From Phycisphaerales bacterium (GTDB lineage: Bacteria; Planctomycetota; Phycisphaerae; Phycisphaerales; UBA1924), in the NCBI GenBank assembly GCA_007693785.1, contig RECY01000033.1, forward strand, positions 62,001 through 126,000: a DNA stretch of 64,000 nucleotides, written 5' to 3'. Within the stretch, counting starts at the first letter, position 1; each line of letters opens with the position of its first letter. The translations under genes were made by a program, and so were the position numbers. The notes beneath the pieces were generated by a model, which did no database searches, had not been told where the DNA came from, and saw nothing but the letters and a program-made list of their open reading frames with translations. This document shows positions 52,813 to 61,007 of the stretch, piece after piece.

Positions 52813-53831
52813 TCCCCCGCCCCCTCTGAGCGTTCCGGGCCCACGACCGTCACCGCCCACGCCGGGATGCGGTACCGCTCCAGCAGCTCCAGCGGGTCGA
52901 ACGGGAGGTCGGCCAGTGGGCGGATCTCCGGGTCCCAGATGTTCAGACGCACCTGCGCCTCGGCACGGGGCAGGTCGATGACATAGCGGCTCGGGATCAT
53001 CGGGCCCGGGAGCCCGGTCGGGAGCGAGACCGATCGTGTCCCCTGCGTCTCGGCCGTCAGCAGAAGCTCACCGTTGCGGCTCCGGATCGCGGCCCCGAGC
53101 AGGTCGAGCGTCGTCGGGTCGAGGTCCAGAAGCTTCTCGCCCGAGCGGGCCGGCAGACGCACGCGGAGGGCGCGCCCGTCCGCTCTCCACGCGACCGTGC
53201 CGCCCTCGGCGGGCATCGGCGTCACGGGGAGCACCTCCAGCAGGTCCAGCGGGTGAAGCGGGACACCGAACGCCTCGATGACCTCCGGCGAGGCCTCGTC
53301 GTGACGCCCGATGGTGGCTCGCCGGTTGTCGCGGTCGAGCATGTCGAACCACCAGTACAGCTCGTCGTTGGAGCCGAGGTAGAAGAACGTCTCGCCCAGC
53401 TTGCCGAGCTGGAGCGCGAGGCGGCGCGGGCGCTGGAGCTGGAGAAAGCCCTCCCCCTGGTCGCGGGTCTCGCGCCCGCGTGCGGTCTGCTGGACGACCT
53501 GGACGGTGGCGCGGGCCCAAAGGGTTTCCATGGGCTGGACGCGCCGGTTGTAGGCGGCCGCGAGCTCGCTGTAGGAGGGCGGCGGGCCGAGCGTTTCGAT
53601 GTCGATCGGCTTCGGCTGGGAGGTGCACCCGGAGAGCGCGAGCCCGAGGAGCACGCAGAGAACGCCGAGCAAGGTTGTCCGGTGCCCCGGAAACGCGGAG
53701 CCGACCGTCCGCGGTCGGCGGAGCTTTGCCGGGTCGGGCATCGCGGACGATCCGAACCCGGAGAAGCCCCGCGGACGTGGCGTTTCCGGGGCACCGGACA
53801 TCGCGGCCTGGGGCTCGGGGCTGGTTTGCAT
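52809..53831 (-). CDS. Lipoprotein (LolB-like?) carrying an in-frame repeat element
   Basis: This is a 340-residue protein. The hydrophobic core LLGVLCVLLGLALSGC (54-69) ends in a lipobox, so C69 is the acylated residue. The core domain YNRRVQPMETLWARATVQVV, GFLQLQRPRRLALQLGKLG and ELYWWFDM has the plan of LolB-like outer-membrane lipoproteins. I start at the ATG at 53831 (GGAGG, 6 nt upstream, TGATG junction with the previous gene). Residues about 12-51 are encoded by repeat copy A1, inserted in the signal-peptide region. An internal ATG at 53741 inside the element could also start translation. Confidence 0.75.
   Translation of the reverse strand: MQTSPEPQAAMSGAPETPRPRGFSGFGSSAMPDPAKLRRPRTVGSAFPGHRTTLLGVLCVLLGLALSGCTSQPKPIDIETLGPPPSYSELAAAYNRRVQPMETLWARATVQVVQQTARGRETRDQGEGFLQLQRPRRLALQLGKLGETFFYLGSNDELYWWFDMLDRDNRRATIGRHDEASPEVIEAFGVPLHPLDLLEVLPVTPMPAEGGTVAWRADGRALRVRLPARSGEKLLDLDPTTLDLLGAAIRSRNGELLLTAETQGTRSVSLPTGLPGPMIPSRYVIDLPRAEAQVRLNIWDPEIRPLADLPFDPLELLERYRIPAWAVTVVGPERSEGAGE
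53679..53797 (-). repeat. Cloverleaf repeat element A, copy 1 (in frame in a gene)
   Basis: The ends CCGGTGCCCCGGAAAC and GTTTCCGGGGCACCGG are inverted repeats. Inside are three hairpins: a short CGTCCGCGG one, an inner TTC/TCCGGG-CCCGG one and a perfect 8 bp GCCGACCG/CGGTCGGC one. Relative to copies A2-A4 it is inverted. It lies fully within the coding sequence of the lipoprotein gene. Confidence 0.9.
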
Positions 53832-54394
53832 CACGCGCCTCCCTTGCCGTCGTCGTCGTCCAGGTTGAGGATCGCGCCGAGTTCTTCGGTGACTTCGGCG
53901 ATCGCGTGCTCGTCGAGGCCGGGGTCTTCGACTTCGAGCAGGGGCGGGCCCTCGCCGCCGCGTTCCGGCGGGAGCTCGACACCCTTGGGGCGGAGGAGCA
54001 TGGTGCCGCCCTTGCTGCCCTCGAGGCGGAGCAGTCGCTTGCGGATGAGGATGAGGGCGAGGATGAAGCGGAGGGCGCGCCGCTTGGGCTCGGTCGCCTC
54101 GGCGAGCTGCTCGAAGAAGTCCAGCAGTTCGCCGTCGCCGATGAGCAGGCGCTTGGGGGCGTCGCGCTCGGGCATGACGGTCTTCCAGTGCCCGACGAGC
54201 GCGAGGGGGCGCTGGGGGCGGGCGCCGTCCTGCCAGGCGCGGAGGGCGAAATCCATGCGTTCGAGGCGTTGGTCCTCTTCGGCGTGCTCGACGAGGCTCG
54301 CGATGAAGCGGTCGCCGGGGCGGATGGGCTCGCCGGTGGCGGCACAGACGCCGGTGGGTCGGGCGACTTCGAAATTAGCCTGGCCTGCGCTCAT
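53831..54394 (-). CDS. Conserved-looking hypothetical protein with acidic tail
   Basis: This is a 187-residue soluble protein. Residues 10-30 (ARPTGVCAATGEPIRPGD) look like the start of a small zinc- or turn-rich module but only one cysteine is seen. The middle is helical (EPKRRALRFILALILIRKRL), followed by the turn GSKGGTMLLRPKGVELP and an acidic C-terminus. Its stop shares bases with the start of the lipoprotein gene (TGATG). I cannot name a family. Confidence 0.65.
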   Translation of the reverse strand: MSAGQANFEVARPTGVCAATGEPIRPGDRFIASLVEHAEEDQRLERMDFALRAWQDGARPQRPLALVGHWKTVMPERDAPKRLLIGDGELLDFFEQLAEATEPKRRALRFILALILIRKRLLRLEGSKGGTMLLRPKGVELPPERGGEGPPLLEVEDPGLDEHAIAEVTEELGAILNLDDDDGKGGA

Positions 54395-54479
54395 GGGTCG
54401 AGTCTAGCGGTCTCGCGGGACGCGTCGGCCCGCGGGTATGCGCACGTTTGGAGCGATGCCGTCGCGAGCGTCGTCGCCG

Positions 54480-54818
54480 TCAGCAGGAAACCTCAAACAT
54501 CCTGCGGCTCGTCCCGCTCGCGCCCACGCGGAAGGTGCAGCTTTTGGCGCAGAGCGGGCAGATGGCCTCGTAGGCCGACCCGTCCCGGTTCTTGTACACA
54601 CGCCGGTACTGCCCGGCGCATTTGAACCAGACCTGAAGAAAAGGGGCCGCCGGGCCCGCGCCGGGCGGGCCCTGGGCCTGACCTTGGGCCTGGCCTTGGA
54701 TCGGGGCTCCCGCGCGAGCCGGGCGGGGCGGGACGCCGTGGGCGTAAAGCGGCTCGGACCGCTCAAACGTGTCCTTCCGGGGCGAAGGCGGGCCGTGCTG
54801 GGGATCGGGCGGGGGCAT
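54480..54818 (-). CDS. Small protein with a C-terminal zinc-ribbon-like half
   Basis: This is a 112-residue protein. Its first half is Pro/Arg/Gly-rich with a short imperfect repeat (GQAQGQAQG). The second half FLQVWFKCAGQYRRVYKN, ICPLCAKSCTFRVG, ending MFEVSC, has cysteines spaced like half a zinc ribbon (CPLC plus others). Such proteins are often accessory factors, but no function can be given. It is the first minus-strand gene of this run, divergent from lpxI. Confidence 0.6.
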   Translation of the reverse strand: MPPPDPQHGPPSPRKDTFERSEPLYAHGVPPRPARAGAPIQGQAQGQAQGPPGAGPAAPFLQVWFKCAGQYRRVYKNRDGSAYEAICPLCAKSCTFRVGASGTSRRMFEVSC

Positions 54819-55014
54819 CAGGGGTGCTTATCGGTCGGGACAGGGGTGCGGGCCCACTCGCCGATGGTTGGGGATGACGAATCAGTGGTATGCGGCGGGG
54901 TGTTGGACCGCTGCATCTGGTAGATTGGGCGAGATGTGCCGTCTTTGGGTGGTGGACCACCCAGAAGGCGGCGTTCGGCCCTAGACTTGGAGTCGATTGG
55001 GGTCGGGCGTCGAT

Positions 55015-55029
55015 GTTGGAACATCCAAC
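55015..55029. promoter_or_regulatory. Inverted repeat before lpxI
   Basis: GTTGGA-ACA-TCCAAC is a perfect inverted repeat 24 bp before the lpxI start. It overlaps a second one (GATGTT-GG-AACATC). It could be an operator or a small leader hairpin. Confidence 0.3.
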
Positions 55030-55052
55030 GCGTCATCCGGGATCTTGAACTG

Positions 55053-56003
55053 ATGCAAAGCGCGCTGACCATCCTGCCGGACCCACCCCCGCCGCCGACC
55101 GCGATCGGTCTGATCGCGGGGGGCGGGCGTTTACCCCTGCTGATCGCGCGGAATCTTCGCGACATGGGGCACGAGGTGCACGGGCTGGGGCTCGCGAATC
55201 AGTACGAGGGCGAGCTGCCCGGCATGTGCGCGTCCTTCCGCGAGGTCGGGCTGCTGCGGGTCGGGAGCTGGGGACGGATCCTGAACCGCTTGGGCGTGCA
55301 CCACGCGATCATGGTCGGCAAGGTCGACAAAGCGAAGCTGATGCATGACCCGTTCCGGATGTACCGGAACCTGCCGGACTTCCGGACGCTGGTCGGCTGG
55401 TTCCGGCACCTGCGCCACGATCGGCGGAGCCACGCCGTGCTGGCGGCGATCGCCGAGGAGCTCGACCGCGCGGGCGTGAGCCTGATCGATTCGACGGCCC
55501 CGATCCCCGACCAGCTCGCGACGGCGGGCGTGATGACGCGGACGCAGCCGACGCGGGAGCAGCAGGCGGATATCGAGTTTGTGTGGCCGCTGCTGACCGA
55601 GACGCTCCGCCTGGACATCGGGCAGGCGATCGCGGTGCGCGAGCGGGACGTGATCGCGGTGGAGGCGGTCGAGGGGACGGACCGGATGATCCAGCGCGTC
55701 GGCGAGTTGTGCCGGGCGAAGGGCTGGACGCTGTGCAAGGGCGCGCGGGCCGGTCATGACCGTCGGAGCGACGTGCCGACGGTGGGTCTGACGACGATCG
55801 AGCGGATGCGCGAGACGGGCGGGCGCTGCCTGGCGCTGGCGGCGGGGGACGTGATCATGCTCGACCGCGAGGCGATGCTGCACCGGGCCGACGAGTGCGG
55901 GATCGCGGTGGTCGGCGTGCCGCACGCGAGGCCGATGCGTCGCGGCGAGCTGCGCGAGGTCAAGCTGAGCCCGGCCCCGGTGGGGCCCGCGGTCGGCGTG
56001 TGA
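55053..56003 (+). CDS. lpxI: UDP-2,3-diacylglucosamine pyrophosphatase LpxI
   Basis: This 316-residue enzyme (DUF1009 family) hydrolyses UDP-2,3-diacylglucosamine to lipid X in lipid A synthesis; LpxI replaces LpxH in many lineages. The motifs IGLIAGGGRLPLLIARNLRD, HHAIMVGKVDKAKL, and late AVRERDVIAVEAVEGTDRMI, KGARAGHDRRSDVPTVG, with a final ACDVIMLD-like AAGDVIMLDREAM, are those of the family. I start at ATG 55053. The stretch before it in the same frame is arginine-rich. Its stop overlaps the next gene's GTG. Confidence 0.93.
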   Translation: MQSALTILPDPPPPPTAIGLIAGGGRLPLLIARNLRDMGHEVHGLGLANQYEGELPGMCASFREVGLLRVGSWGRILNRLGVHHAIMVGKVDKAKLMHDPFRMYRNLPDFRTLVGWFRHLRHDRRSHAVLAAIAEELDRAGVSLIDSTAPIPDQLATAGVMTRTQPTREQQADIEFVWPLLTETLRLDIGQAIAVRERDVIAVEAVEGTDRMIQRVGELCRAKGWTLCKGARAGHDRRSDVPTVGLTTIERMRETGGRCLALAAGDVIMLDREAMLHRADECGIAVVGVPHARPMRRGELREVKLSPAPVGPAVGV

Positions 56004-56683
56004 CGCGCCCGGGCGTGACGCAGGAACCCAGATCATCTGAAGTGTTTTTGATCCCGGAGCCGCCGGTGTTTGTCGGTCGGGGCGGGGTCAAGCTCTGGCA
56101 CGCGTTGCACGCCTTTGAGATCGACCCACGCGGGCGCACGTGCGCGGACTTCGGCTGCTCGACCGGTGGGTTTACGGATTGCTTCCTGCAACTCGGGGCC
56201 GCACGCGTCCACAGCGTCGACACGGCGTATGGGCAGCTCGCGTGGAAGCTTCGCAACGATCCGCGCGTGGCCGTCCATGAGCGCACGAACGCGCTGCACG
56301 CCGAGGTTCCGGGGGAGGGGCCGACCGATCTGATCGCGATCGATCTGGGCTGGACGCGTCAGCGCCACGCGATCCCGGCGGCTTTGCGCTGGCTCGCGCC
56401 GGGCGGGTCGATCGTGACGCTGGTGAAGCCGCACTATGAGTTGGAGGCGAGCGAACGCGCCATGCTCGGCGCGGGAGGCGTTCTGGAGGCAGGCGATGCG
56501 CTGCGCGTCGTTCGGCGCACGCTCGATGAGATCGAGACGCTGGGCGCGCGCACGGTCGCGGTCTGCAAGAGCCCGGTGCTGGGCGGGGCGGTCGGGGGGA
56601 AGCGGAAGCGCGGGAAAAAGGCGGGCGAGCCGGCGGCCGGGAAGGGGAACGCGGAGTGGCTGGCTTGGGTGCGAGCGGGGTGA
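56000..56683 (+). CDS. TlyA-like rRNA methyltransferase without S4 domain
   Basis: This 227-residue protein matches the FtsJ-type methyltransferase half of TlyA (FVGRGGVKLWHALHAFEID, FGCSTGGFTDCFLQLGAARV, VDTAYGQLAWKLRNDPRVAV, LVKPHYELEA). TlyA modifies 16S and 23S rRNA riboses. The usual N-terminal S4 RNA-binding domain is missing: only about 25 residues precede the first motif. The GTG at 56000 overlaps the lpxI stop (GTGA), so the two genes are coupled. A basic KRKRGKK segment near the end might partly replace the S4 domain. Confidence 0.85.
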   Translation: MTRPGVTQEPRSSEVFLIPEPPVFVGRGGVKLWHALHAFEIDPRGRTCADFGCSTGGFTDCFLQLGAARVHSVDTAYGQLAWKLRNDPRVAVHERTNALHAEVPGEGPTDLIAIDLGWTRQRHAIPAALRWLAPGGSIVTLVKPHYELEASERAMLGAGGVLEAGDALRVVRRTLDEIETLGARTVAVCKSPVLGGAVGGKRKRGKKAGEPAAGKGNAEWLAWVRAG

Positions 56684-56706
56684 GCGGGAGCGACAGAGAG
56701 GGGGAG

Positions 56707-56736
56707 CACTGACCTCTCGGAAGAGGTCAGTGGCAC
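56707..56736 (-). repeat. Hairpin repeat element B, copy 3 (divergent arms)
   Basis: On the minus strand GTGCCACTGACC... forms a hairpin with a CACTGACCTCT/AGAGGTCAGTG stem around TTCCG. The flank GACAGACCCC before it resembles the flank of copy B1 (TCTGTCCCCC). It lies between the convergent methyltransferase and obgE stops and may end both transcripts. Confidence 0.7.
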
Positions 56737-56746
56737 GGGGTCTGTC

Positions 56747-57938
<1,192 letters not shown>

Positions 57939-57960
57939 GAAGGGAGAGGGAGAGGGAGAG

Positions 57961-57985
57961 GACACAGCTCGGAGAGCTGTGCCAC
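57961..57985 (-). repeat. Hairpin repeat element B, copy 1
   Basis: On the minus strand GTGGCACAGCTCTCCGAGCT leads into a 7-8 bp stem (CACAGCT/AGCTGTG) around CTCCG, with TGTGTC after it. It lies 12 nt after the PilZ stop, is followed by a pyrimidine-rich run, and then by element A2. A purine-rich tract on the plus strand (57939-57960) separates the two. Confidence 0.85.
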
Positions 57986-57996
57986 GGGGGACAGAT

Positions 57997-58434
57997 TCAG
58001 GCGACGAGGGTGTAAAGGCCGCTGGTGAGCTGGCGGAGGAGTCGTTCGCGGTCGCCGAGGCGGCAAAATCGGGTGAAGGCGACGGCGTGTCGGACGGGGC
58101 CGGCGACATCGTCGTCGTCGATCCAGACCACGTTGCCGATCGCGAAGACCGCGCGCCCGGGGCCGATGTCGGGCTGGAGCCCGCGACGGCTCGCAAAGCC
58201 CAGCGGCGCGGGCAGGTCAATCCGCAGCGCCACGGCTCGCCCGGGCTCGATCGGGTGGTCCAGCTCGAACTGGATCCCGCCCTCGCTGATGTTGTACGCG
58301 TGCCCCTCGAATCGGAAGCCCTCTTCATCGAGCGGGCGGACGGCGATGCCGGTGTACATCGGCGGCGTCACATACCGCTGGTGGCGGCGACGGTTCGCGG
58401 GGTCCGGCGAAGGGCTCGAGCGGAGGGCGGACAT
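57997..58434 (-). CDS. PilZ-domain protein
   Basis: This is a 145-residue protein with the c-di-GMP-binding PilZ pattern: RRRHQRYVTPPMYTGIAVR (an RxxxR-type N-terminal arm), then NISEGGIQFELDHPIEPG (the [DN]xSxxG motif; here N-I-S-E-G-G). Both motifs are intact, so c-di-GMP binding is likely. I start at ATG 58434 (GGGAG 7 nt upstream). The longer frame from 58719 is repeat A3 read through. PilZ proteins often modulate flagella or envelope synthesis; no target is visible here. Confidence 0.88.
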   Translation of the reverse strand: MSALRSSPSPDPANRRRHQRYVTPPMYTGIAVRPLDEEGFRFEGHAYNISEGGIQFELDHPIEPGRAVALRIDLPAPLGFASRRGLQPDIGPGRAVFAIGNVVWIDDDDVAGPVRHAVAFTRFCRLGDRERLLRQLTSGLYTLVA

Positions 58435-58497
58435 GACAGGCTCCCTAGTCTGCGGTTCGGGCATGCGCGGGGGGACCGGCGTGCCAAAGGCTGTAGA

Positions 58498-58527
58498 AAT
58501 ATCGGCCGGGTGGTGGGATCGCTCCAA
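58498..58527 (-). promoter_or_regulatory. Candidate promoter of the PilZ gene
   Basis: Read on the minus strand, TTGGAG (58527-58522) and GATATT (58503-58498) are separated by 18 bp. The start would be near 58491, about 57 nt before the PilZ ATG. Confidence 0.35.
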
Positions 58528-58584
58528 CCCTTTTGGGCGGGGAGGGGGCCTGGAATCGGTGGTATCCAAGCCATGTCTCAGTGA

Positions 58585-58722
58585 CCGGTGCCCCGGAAAC
58601 GGCCCGTCTGCGGGGCTTTTCCGGGATCGGGGGCGGGACGGCGCGATGGGTCGGTAATGGCGGGGAAACCCGGAAAAACTGCGCCGACCGCGGCGGTCGG
58701 CTCCGTGTTTCCGGGGCACCGG
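58585..58722. repeat. Cloverleaf repeat element A, copy 3
   Basis: The ends CCGGTGCCCCGGAAAC and GTTTCCGGGGCACCGG are perfect. Internal hairpins: CCCG-TCTG-CGGG, TTTTCCGGG/CCCGGAAAAA around a long loop, and GCCGACCG-CGG-CGGTCGGC. It lies directly downstream of the fur stop, before PilZ. Confidence 0.92.
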
Positions 58723-58733
58723 GCGGTAGAGCC

Positions 58734-59159
58734 TTAGCGGGATTCGGTGACGAGTTGGACGGAGACGCGTCCGATCCGCATGCCGGTTCGGCGTTCGAGT
58801 TCGGCGACGAGTTCGTCGCTGAGCTGGTCGAGGAATCGCTCGGAGAGGTCGTCGGGGACGTCCATGATCCGTCCGTCGGGGGTGGTGAGGTGGACGTGCT
58901 CGTGGGTGTCGGCGTCGTAGCGGCAGGGGCCGGAGCCGAGCGTGCTGGGGAGGCGTCGGATGAGCCCGGCGGCTGTGAAGGCGTCAAGCGTGTTGTAGAC
59001 GGTGGCGAGGCTGAGCCCGGCGTCCTGATCGCGGACGCGGTCGTGGAGTTCCTCGGCCGTGGGGTGGGACTTGGTGACTTTGAGGGCGGCGTAGAGCGTC
59101 TCACGCTGGCGGGTGCAGCGGAGGCCGTGGCGGGTGAAGATGTCGCGGTAGGTGGTCAC
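58734..59159 (-). CDS. Fur-family transcription regulator without CxxC zinc motifs
   Basis: This is a 141-residue Fur/PerR-type repressor. The winged helix (about 10-85) has HGLRCTRQRETLYAAL, HPTAEELHDRVR and LSLATVYNTLDAFTAAGLI. The metal region reads DADTHEHVHLTTPDG, with histidines H and H at the usual ligand positions. The CxxC pairs that hold structural zinc in many Fur proteins are absent. The metal cannot be predicted. Palindromes in front of the gene may be its own operator. Confidence 0.9.
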   Translation of the reverse strand: MTTYRDIFTRHGLRCTRQRETLYAALKVTKSHPTAEELHDRVRDQDAGLSLATVYNTLDAFTAAGLIRRLPSTLGSGPCRYDADTHEHVHLTTPDGRIMDVPDDLSERFLDQLSDELVAELERRTGMRIGRVSVQLVTESR

Positions 59160-59193
59160 GCTGAGGAACTATTGGAGGGCGGCGGGGGAGGGA

Positions 59194-59237
59194 CCAGCCA
59201 AGGGCTGGAGATTTGGAATGATTCTAAGCCTTGGCTT
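59194..59237. promoter_or_regulatory. Fur-gene upstream region with palindromes
   Basis: CCAGCC-AAG-GGCTGG (59194-59208), GAATGATTC (59216-59224) and AAGCC-TT-GGCTT (59226-59237) follow each other, and AGCCAAGG/CCTTGGCT pairs the outer two. The region is much less GC-rich than its surroundings. It could hold the promoter and operator of the Fur gene. Confidence 0.35.
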
Positions 59238-59269
59238 CAAAATGGGATAGAGATCGCAACATGGGCAGT

Positions 59270-59405
59270 CCGGTGCCCCGGAAACGGCCCGTCCGCGGGC
59301 CTTTTCCGGGATCCGGGGCGGACGGCGTGATGGCAACGGCTGACAGGCCGACCCGGAAAAACTGCGCCGACCGGGGCGGTCGGCTCCGTGTTTCCGGGGC
59401 ACCGG
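59270..59405. repeat. Cloverleaf repeat element A, copy 4
   Basis: The ends match copy 3 exactly. Internal hairpins: CCCG-TCCG-CGGG, TTTTCCGGG/CCCGGAAAAA and GCCGACCG-GGG-CGGTCGGC. It lies between the Fur-gene promoter region and the GNAT gene and is followed by a purine-rich run (59406-59436) and element B2. Confidence 0.92.
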
Positions 59406-59436
59406 GGGATAGAGAAGATAAGGAGAGTGAGGGGGA

Positions 59437-59461
59437 GACACAGCTCGGAGAGCTGTGCCAC
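59437..59461 (-). repeat. Hairpin repeat element B, copy 2
   Basis: Its 25 bases are identical to those of copy B1 (57961-57985). It begins 19 nt after the GNAT stop (minus strand), again followed by a pyrimidine-rich run and then element A4. Confidence 0.88.
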
Positions 59462-59479
59462 CAAGGGGGCCAGATCCGG

Positions 59480-59971
59480 TCAGGCCGGGCCGTTGGCTCG
59501 GAGGGTCATGCGGTGGTGCGGGATGCCGGCCTCGGTGAAGCCTTCGGGGTCGGTCGCCCAGCCGAGCTTTTCGTAGAAGGGCATCGCCTCGTCGCGGGCG
59601 TGGCAGAAGAGCTCTTCGATGCCGAGCTCGCCGAACGCACGGCTCTCGACGGCCATCACCAGGCGACGCCCGATGCCCTCGCCCTGTCGTTGCAGGTCGA
59701 CGGCCATCTGCATGAGCTTGCCGATGCCCTGGTCCGGATGGTGCGGGAGGAGGCAGGCGCACCCGATGACACGCGGGGCGACGGAGCCGTCGGGCTGGGG
59801 GTGGTTGAAGACGGCGACGAAGTGCTCGAAGGCTTCCTCAAGCCCGGGGTATTCGCGGATAAAGCGGGCGATGTCGTAGCCGATGGGGCCGAGGAGAACC
59901 TGCTCGCGCAGGGCCTGCTCCTGGGCGAGCAGGTCGTGATCTTCGGGCTGGAGTCGGAGGATCTGGATCAT
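59480..59971 (-). CDS. GNAT-family acetyltransferase
   Basis: This is a 163-residue N-acetyltransferase-type protein. The acetyl-CoA site is in QRQGEGIGRRLVMAVESRA (Q/RxxGxG/A pattern), preceded by the strand KLMQMAVDLQ and followed by the last-helix motif HARDEAMPFYEKLGWAT. The substrate is unknown; close relatives by pattern are the ElaA/YjcF-type group. The ATG at 59971 opens it. It is flanked by repeats on the 3' side and by the divergent zinc-ribbon gene on the 5' side. Confidence 0.88.
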   Translation of the reverse strand: MIQILRLQPEDHDLLAQEQALREQVLLGPIGYDIARFIREYPGLEEAFEHFVAVFNHPQPDGSVAPRVIGCACLLPHHPDQGIGKLMQMAVDLQRQGEGIGRRLVMAVESRAFGELGIEELFCHARDEAMPFYEKLGWATDPEGFTEAGIPHHRMTLRANGPA

Positions 59972-60078
59972 CGGTCGTGGTCTCGGGGCGACGGGTCGGA
60001 ATTGGGCGGCGGATACTGTAGCGATTGAGGGCTTCGGGGGTAGCTCGGCGGGGTGTGCCCGTGAATGGAGCGGGCGAA

Positions 60079-60102
60079 GACGGGCGGGACGCCCGTCCCA
60101 CC
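60079..60102. repeat. Palindromic repeat element C
   Basis: GACGGGCG-GGA-CGCCCGTC forms a perfect 8 bp hairpin, followed by CCACC. It lies between the divergent GNAT and zinc-ribbon genes, so it is not simply a terminator. I recall this kind of sequence as recurrent in planctomycete genomes, unverified here. Confidence 0.7.
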
Positions 60103-60129
60103 GAGATGTGGAAGCTTGAAGGGACGGGC

Positions 60130-60939
60130 ATGGCGAGGGAGCGAATCGATCCCGACGCCGTGCTCTGCGAGGGGTGCGGGTACGAGATCGGCGGGCTGGG
60201 GGAGGGGTACGCGGCCAACGCGTGCCCGGAGTGCGGGCGGGCGCTGGCGGATTCGATGCCGGGGCATCGGAAGGGGTCGCCCCTGCAACGCGAGCCCGGG
60301 CGCGGGCCGGGCGCGATCTGTCGCACGTGGTGGCGGGTGGTCCGTCACCCGTGGCGTGTGTGGGACGAGGTGCAGCCGGCGGAGTCGGGCGAACTCGCGT
60401 CGCGGGCCCGCGTGCTGCGTCTGTGCACGAACGCGATGGCGGTTCTGCCCGTGCTGGCGCTCCTGGTTTCGGTCGTGTATGCGGAGTCGATCACGCCGGT
60501 GGCGGCGGCGTTGCGTTGGATGGTGCCGCTCTTGGCTGGGTTCTTTGTGCTGCTGGAGGTGCTGTGCCGGATCGAGTCGATCGGGATCCGCACGATCGGG
60601 CGTCAGCGAGGTTGGCGGGTGACGCCGGGAGTGGCGCGGGCGGTGATCGCGCACGCGAGCGTGGGTTGGCTGCTCGCGGCGGTGCTGATCGCGGGCGGGT
60701 TCTGGCTCGGGCGGTGGTTCCAAGGGCTGGTGGGCGTGGGGCGTCCGTTGCCGGCGGGGGACTGGCTCGGGGCGATCGTTGAGACCGCCCCGCTGCTGTT
60801 CCCGGCCGTCGGTTTCCTGATCGGGATGCTGGTGTTCGAAGCCTTGGTCTACGTCGGCGTTCGGCGGATGCGGTTTGTGAATCGGGTGCCCGCGGGGGGC
60901 GAAGCAGACCTTGCCGTTCTGGACGAGCCGCGACCCTGA
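60130..60939 (+). CDS. Zinc-ribbon membrane protein
   Basis: This is a 269-residue protein. A zinc ribbon with two CxxC pairs (CEGCGYEIGGL and CPECGRAL, at about residues 13-38) precedes four hydrophobic segments near residues 95-120, 125-145, 178-200 and 220-245. I choose ATG 60130, because AAGGGACGGG lies just upstream, over 60106, which would add 8 residues; the frame further upstream is repeat C. Similar zinc-ribbon membrane proteins of unknown role are common in this phylum. Confidence 0.72.
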   Translation: MARERIDPDAVLCEGCGYEIGGLGEGYAANACPECGRALADSMPGHRKGSPLQREPGRGPGAICRTWWRVVRHPWRVWDEVQPAESGELASRARVLRLCTNAMAVLPVLALLVSVVYAESITPVAAALRWMVPLLAGFFVLLEVLCRIESIGIRTIGRQRGWRVTPGVARAVIAHASVGWLLAAVLIAGGFWLGRWFQGLVGVGRPLPAGDWLGAIVETAPLLFPAVGFLIGMLVFEALVYVGVRRMRFVNRVPAGGEADLAVLDEPRP

Positions 60940-60969
60940 TGGAGCGGGTACGCGGGTATCAAACGACGT

Positions 60970-61007
60970 GCCGCTGCCGGAGGACCGCTCCCTGACGGTC
61001 GCGGCTC
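60970..61007. repeat. Palindromic repeat element D
   Basis: An inner hairpin GACCG-CTCCCTGA-CGGTC sits within an outer GCCGC/GCGGC pairing. It stands between the zinc-ribbon gene and ispG. On the minus strand it reads GAGCCGCGACCGTCAGGGAG. I recall such sequences in other planctomycetes, unverified here. It may terminate the zinc-ribbon transcript. Confidence 0.65.

Follow-up and report, generated by a model that had tools for sequence, protein, structure and literature searches.

Repeats of the REPIN/BIME type and their RAYT transposases, together termed REPtrons, have been characterized in E. coli and Pseudomonas (PMC6006769, PMC8266576, PMC3733652). In these descriptions, the repeats are inverted hairpins with outward-facing tags, they exist in many intergenic copies that often lie behind the ends of ORFs, and copies are found on either side of a single gene of the Y1/HUH RAYT family. 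The part of PMC3733652 on the GTAG superfamily describes REPs with a tag at the foot of a palindrome, which occur as singles and as HH dimers. In the same paper, section 15 places REPs near the 3′ ends of ORFs, at less than 20 bp for most convergent ones, section 7 reports REP dimers inserted inside other palindromes, and section 16 describes the TIRtron/TIRYT arrangement, in which a Y1 gene lies between partly self-complementary non-GTAG repeats, some of them dispersed and with dimers. In addition, E. coli REPs located within 15 nt of stop codons have been reported to stall ribosomes (PMC12306157).

Two repeat elements that resemble these systems, A and B, are present in the window analyzed here, a stretch of 64,000 nt from a Phycisphaerales bacterium (GenBank assembly GCA_007693785.1, contig RECY01000033.1, positions 62,001 to 126,000 of the forward strand). 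The initial annotation had described, on the minus strand, the same order of a B hairpin, a pyrimidine run, and element A behind the stop codons of a PilZ gene and a GNAT gene, and this order is indeed present at both loci. Behind the PilZ-domain gene (57997..58434, minus strand, PF07238), 11 nt separate the stop from B (57961..57985, minus strand), a GTGG-tagged 19-nt palindrome of the REP type with the sequence GTGGCACAGCTCTCCGAGCTGTGTC. It is followed on the same strand by a run of 21 nt with 100% pyrimidine (57940..57960) and by A1 (57822..57939), an inverted dimer of two tagged hairpins with a decayed distal end; the distal unit is absent from the unit-model output, and the extent of A1 was taken from the alignment of the four window copies. 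The gene downstream of A1 encodes an Obg/CgtA GTPase (56747..57790, minus strand, PF01018, TIGR02729). Behind the GNAT acetyltransferase gene (59480..59971, minus strand, PF13673, PF00583), the stop and the second B (59437..59461, minus strand) are 18 nt apart, so that both stop-to-B distances, previously given as 12 to 19 nt, had been overestimated by one. The identity of the two 25-nt B hairpins (57985-57961 and 59461-59437) was confirmed. A pyrimidine-rich run of 32 nt (59405..59436, minus strand; pyrimidine fraction 0.91 over 34 nt) and A3 (59271..59404, minus strand), again an inverted dimer, complete the second locus.

Two further copies of A in the window lack B. A2 (58586..58721, minus strand), the same element as A1, lies 12 nt behind the stop of a gene for a Fur-family regulator (58734..59159, minus strand, PF01475), and A4 (53680..53796, plus strand), an inverted dimer, is located at the 5′ end of a minus-strand gene and not behind a stop. 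Thus, the window alone already separates A from B. The 5′ end of the minus-strand gene is overlapped or abutted by A4, and its encoded N-terminus looks, by eye, like a lipoprotein signal. All four A copies and both B copies fold more stably than shuffled sequences (z-scores of −4.5 to −8.5 for A and −3.9 for both B). Rfam covariance models gave no match on A or B in the region 53000-61000 at E ≤ 1; the sole, sub-threshold match in this region, mir-2756, is at 60751-60814, outside A and B.

The window and genome-wide analyses lead to the very probable conclusion that A and B are two separate REP-type mobile families, that A is REPIN/BIME-like and probably copied by a RAYT, that both gather behind stop codons, and that A meets B more often than a rough null model predicts. 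Two separate repeats tend to adopt the order of B, tract, and A; it is not the property of one composite. In place of a puzzling composite behind stop codons, there is a REP/RAYT system from a phylum that has received little study.

For element A, an alignment of the window copies, all four of them included and 150 columns long, shows two inverted hairpins with the outer ends CGGTGCC...GGCACCG, the distal end of A1 being decayed. In the 3.06-Mb genome, a covariance model of the 51-position unit gave at least 120 matches at E ≤ 0.01, of which 117 were used after removal of three that overlapped stronger units on the opposite strand. These 117 hairpin units form at least 66 elements, and 52 of the 66 are inverted pairs (+ then −), with lengths of 117–173 nt; the copy numbers may be low, because the search scored 150 of 9266 first-look candidates. 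This genome-wide search superseded an earlier count, which had been obtained by BLAST and a profile on retrieved stretches only and was skewed toward B loci. The A hairpin is conserved as a structure, with strong compensatory change. Among 80 aligned units (out of 84 collected; 79 are distinct), 99.2% of the cells are paired and 90 cells are changed on both sides, compared to a pairing of at most 57.2% in controls with slid partners; units and structure were picked from these same sequences, which favors the unslid structure with respect to pairing and less so with respect to double changes. In columns 10-11 and 54-55, the combinations CC/GG (48 units), AT/AT (30), and AC/GT (2) are compensated in 80/80 units. 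An internal loop, G-N-A/G-N-A (columns 20-22 and 43-45), is kept in 72 of the 80 units and might permit sheared G-A pairing when the DNA is single-stranded. E. coli REPs also have mismatches, forming a bulge that is required for activity (PMC8266576). When the DNA of A3 was searched for in 60 relatives, none of them of the same genus, no empty site came to light and the matches were unconvincing: eight had matches with E ≤ 0.01, all 24–39 nt long, with a best E of 3e-4. The 24-nt A core had no match in viral contigs. At one locus (L086, about 2050-2217, G000:C17), the string CCCCTCTCCCTCTGGGAGAGGGCTGGGGTGAGGG lies beside a single A unit; similar strings occur in many bacterial genomes.

The genome has one match to Y1_Tnp at E ≤ 0.01, and the encoded RAYT protein, used as a query, found its own gene as the only match in the genome. 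The protein scores 106.5 bits with NF047646 (REP_Tyr_transpos; cut-off 80) and contains HVH and YCHINP; the latter fits Y---NP, which PMC6006769 gives as the signature of class 2. Two copies of the A family flank the RAYT gene, located at C13:27098-27610, in the same orientation, one on each side (L076, 1092-1234 and 1803-1944), which is the REPtron layout as described in PMC6006769. The flanking copies differ from the bulk copies, and the link between A and the RAYT is therefore one of family, not of identity. The association of A with the RAYT gene is observed, and we infer from it movement by the RAYT: A, as two tagged, imperfect, inverted hairpins with the tags outward, is probably copied by this single HUH/Y1 single-strand transposase of the genome. 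Compared to the REPIN/BIME systems of E. coli and Pseudomonas, A differs by its tag, by the length of its pairs, and by its host, a planctomycete of the Phycisphaerales. In comparison to TIRtron/TIRYT as described in section 16 of PMC3733652, A is made up of REP-like hairpins whose foot bears a fixed tag, and the GGGGWSAS motif was not seen by eye at the ends of A.

The position behind gene ends is a known habit of REPs, and it is the tag that is unusual. At the foot of the A hairpin, 75 of the 80 units carry GTGC and five carry the canonical GTGG, so that A is a GTGC variant outside the definition of canonical REPs by GT[AG]G, that is, GTAG or GTGG at the foot. Tetranucleotides directly preceding the feet of 7-bp hairpins were scanned blindly within 450 nt of transposase hits. 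At 30 RAYT-relative loci, a subset of all RAYT-relative matches that includes the own locus, GTGC was the top tetranucleotide, with 26 loci, versus seven for GTGG and one for GTAG. At 27 of 30 other Y1 loci (L158, L161, and L162 were excluded), GTAG was the top tetranucleotide with 15 loci, and GTGC and GTGG were found at two loci each. In the shuffles, one per group, the best tetranucleotide reached four and five loci. Two earlier hairpin scans used stricter settings, and one of them found GTGC at 15 of 60 loci. Of 121 genomes, 57 had matches to RAYT relatives, with the own genome included in the count. In a phylogenetic tree, the split between the GTGC lineage and the other Y1 proteins was supported with values of 98/97, with the bootstrap not settled and the split arising partly by construction, because one group had been chosen by its similarity to the own RAYT. 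On the side of the own RAYT, 26 of 31 rows carry GTGC, and one GTAG row with a long branch (L157) is also located there; GTGC requires six label changes on the tree, the least number forced being three.

The string GTGC is absent from the main texts, figures excluded, of PMC3733652, PMC8266576, and PMC6006769, and it does not occur at the start of a word in PMC12306157. In PMC3686654, which writes the tag as GTA/GG, it occurs three times, within listed REP sequences. Among the papers searched, none reported a GTGC tag in its title or the beginning of its abstract, and within this literature RAYT and Planctomycetes appear together as whole words only in PMC3733652 and PMC6006769. What is new is the GTGC tag common to one RAYT lineage, and possibly also the landing of a repeat beside or inside another family. 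Guide rules have been tried with altered tags (PMC8266576), and the GTGC hairpins represent a natural tag change. If the tag serves RAYTs as a guide, other dinucleotides should be cut by this lineage: with C as the fourth tag base, cleavage would shift, under the published guide model, from the dinucleotides CT/CA to GC or GA.

Element B conforms to the canonical REP definition. It has GTGG directly at the foot of an 8-3-8 palindrome and forms tag-outward (HH) dimers; the main type is present in 30 perfect copies in the 306 kb examined, and the arms of other copies differ and yet remain palindromic (CACAGCTC, CACAGGTC, CACGGCTC, GACGGGCG, and others). The 23-nt core had 62 matches with up to three mismatches in the 3.06-Mb genome, versus none for a reversed control pattern. 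Inclusion of the tag resulted in 69 matches, 65 of which are listed; the 62 core matches and five from this second search give at least 67 units. These are located at 48 sites, namely 15 tag-outward pairs (+−), 30 singles, and three runs in one direction, and the −+ arrangement does not occur. With up to three mismatches, B was found in 8 of 60 relatives, mostly in G009 (23), G025 (15), and G008 (9), and exact B outside the own genome was present in 12 stretches titled Phycisphaerales, Phycisphaeraceae, or Planctomycetota. B thus resembles the GTAG-superfamily REPs in its tag, its singles and HH dimers, and its location close behind ORF ends, and it differs from their description in PMC3733652 in having no linked transposase among the loci listed: in a tblastn search with 14 RAYTs against 107 listed loci (L001-L030, L077-L133, and L250-L269), only L103 matched, with the RAYT of the genome analyzed here. 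A possible clue to the enzyme that spread B is the RAYT locus L187, which belongs to the GTGC lineage and carries GTGG-tagged hairpins (CACTGACC...) in a B-like layout. At L179, a B-like palindrome lies about 570 nt from the RAYT.

The positions of both elements relative to genes were analyzed with uncurated, codon-usage-based gene calls made here on 381 kb. For comparison, elements were placed randomly in the same gaps in 4000 runs, the two B of a pair being treated as independent; one of the 66 A (C8:156858) was without a flank, and one A and four B were inside called ORFs. Among the 62 B with both neighbors called, 32 were within 25 nt of a stop, compared to 13.2 expected, a value not reached in any of the 4000 permutations. 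For A, the values were 22 of 61 versus 14.1 expected, reached in six of the 4000 permutations. Near start codons, both were rarer than expected (B, 4 versus 12.1; A, 2 versus 9.5). The gathering behind stops is sharpest for B: of the 34 copies outside ORFs that have a gene 3′ end on their tag side, 31 are 0–24 nt and 22 are 0–15 nt past the stop, and on the non-tag side 3 of 23 are within 25 nt of a stop. Divergent gaps, with no stop nearby, harbor 15 of 61 A and 12 of 62 B, and convergent gaps also harbor 15 of 61 A. Tolerance or targeting may underlie these positions; A and B probably pile up behind stops because insertions there would do the least harm.

A and B meet at a minority of sites. 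B was found within 40 nt of A for 8 of the 66 A elements (Poisson P of 5e-4), at spacings of 6–34 nt, and within 300 nt for 11, compared to 1.78 expected (Poisson P of 2.8e-6). This null model is rough, since it is limited to gaps of at least 30 nt with a gene 3′ end, the number of such gaps (about 1783) is an estimate, and sites may differ in quality beyond gap length. In seven of the eight close contacts, the B tag is outermost, resulting in the order stop-B-A, and at one site A comes first (stop-A-B; C33:23473-23685). A nest of B, 16 nt, A, 16 nt, and B is present at C32:158088-158308, and at C36:69372-69669 B lies on both sides of A, at 17 nt and at 90 nt with another palindrome in between; on C24, half a B lies past A. 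The contacts above the rough null and the nest on C32 indicate that A may land beside B or inside pairs of B, which would produce the B-tract-A order. Tentatively, and with less than even confidence, we propose that a Phycisphaerales RAYT lineage uses GTGC instead of GTAG as REP tag and guide, and that one such REPIN lands preferentially beside or inside another REPIN family, thereby nesting repeats at gene ends. The contacts raise the question of whether one REPIN can land in another.

The most serious competing explanation is that A and B meet merely through a shared tolerance at few places behind stops, without any targeting of B by A. Both elements prefer stops, solo copies are in the majority, the distance between B and A is variable, and A1 and A3 in the window have no B on their far side, all of which would be expected under this explanation. 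However, the excess of contacts over the rough null and the location of A between two B on C32 and C36 argue against it, and we consider it a serious contender with somewhat less than an even chance.

A joint transcription-end or mRNA-processing module, in which the B hairpin, the tract, and A work jointly at 3′ ends and are maintained as a single unit, had been suggested in the initial annotation and is very improbable in the light of the genome-wide data. The prevailing stop-B-A order would agree with a joint module, as would the same order of stop, B, and repeat that occurs once in another genus, in G009, with B 10 nt after the stop and a GTGC repeat unrelated to A 64 nt further on; this is one of 13 repeat stretches, the RAYT locus excluded, and some of the G009 sites are due to chance, as 26 matches to the 16-nt repeat pattern compare with nine to the reversed control. 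It would also account for the terminator-like sites of the window: A1-A3 each contain an 8-bp terminator-like stem with a T5 run behind it on the coding strand (57919-57901, minus strand, in A1), and the region 57000-60500 has six such sites, compared to 1.1 in shuffles, five of the six lying inside these copies. However, 58 of the 66 A have no B within 40 nt, the spacing is not constant, the order is reversed at one site, A is equally common in divergent and convergent gaps, and T5 is present in 7 of 79 distinct A units, most units having T4 inside a longer stem.

The pyrimidine run also argues against a joint module. Nine of the ten stretches between the 3′ end of B and A (8 to 103 nt) contain at least 70% pyrimidine, and two stretches on C33 on the tag side of B have values of 0.42 and 0.33. 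The 25-nt tails have a mean pyrimidine fraction of 0.72 for B near A (12) and of 0.69 for solo B without a nearby A (24), compared to 0.57 for paired B (31), 0.53 for the 25 nt outside the A tags, and 0.49 for control stretches (116). The run therefore belongs with single B units and not with a joint module. The suggestion of a mobile composite that lands after stops survives as far as mobile-type elements and the preference for stops are concerned, but not with respect to one composite; genome-wide, B and A show biases in order and position, with most A lacking B. Plain intrinsic terminators that became alike by convergence are the least probable explanation, because the terminator-like matches in A1-A3 contrast with the conserved primary sequence of A, including its tag and internal loop, with its occurrence in divergent gaps, and with the copies on either side of the RAYT gene.

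By analogy with the REPs of E. coli, the window copies of A may end transcription, and B copies located no more than 15 nt behind a stop may delay the termination of translation or shield the 3′ end; in position, these B copies are similar to the stop-proximal E. coli REPs of PMC12306157. A further B-type GTGG-tagged palindrome with different arms (GACGGGCGTCCCGCCCGTC) is located in the window at 60079-60101, and six such palindromes are present in the 306 kb examined.
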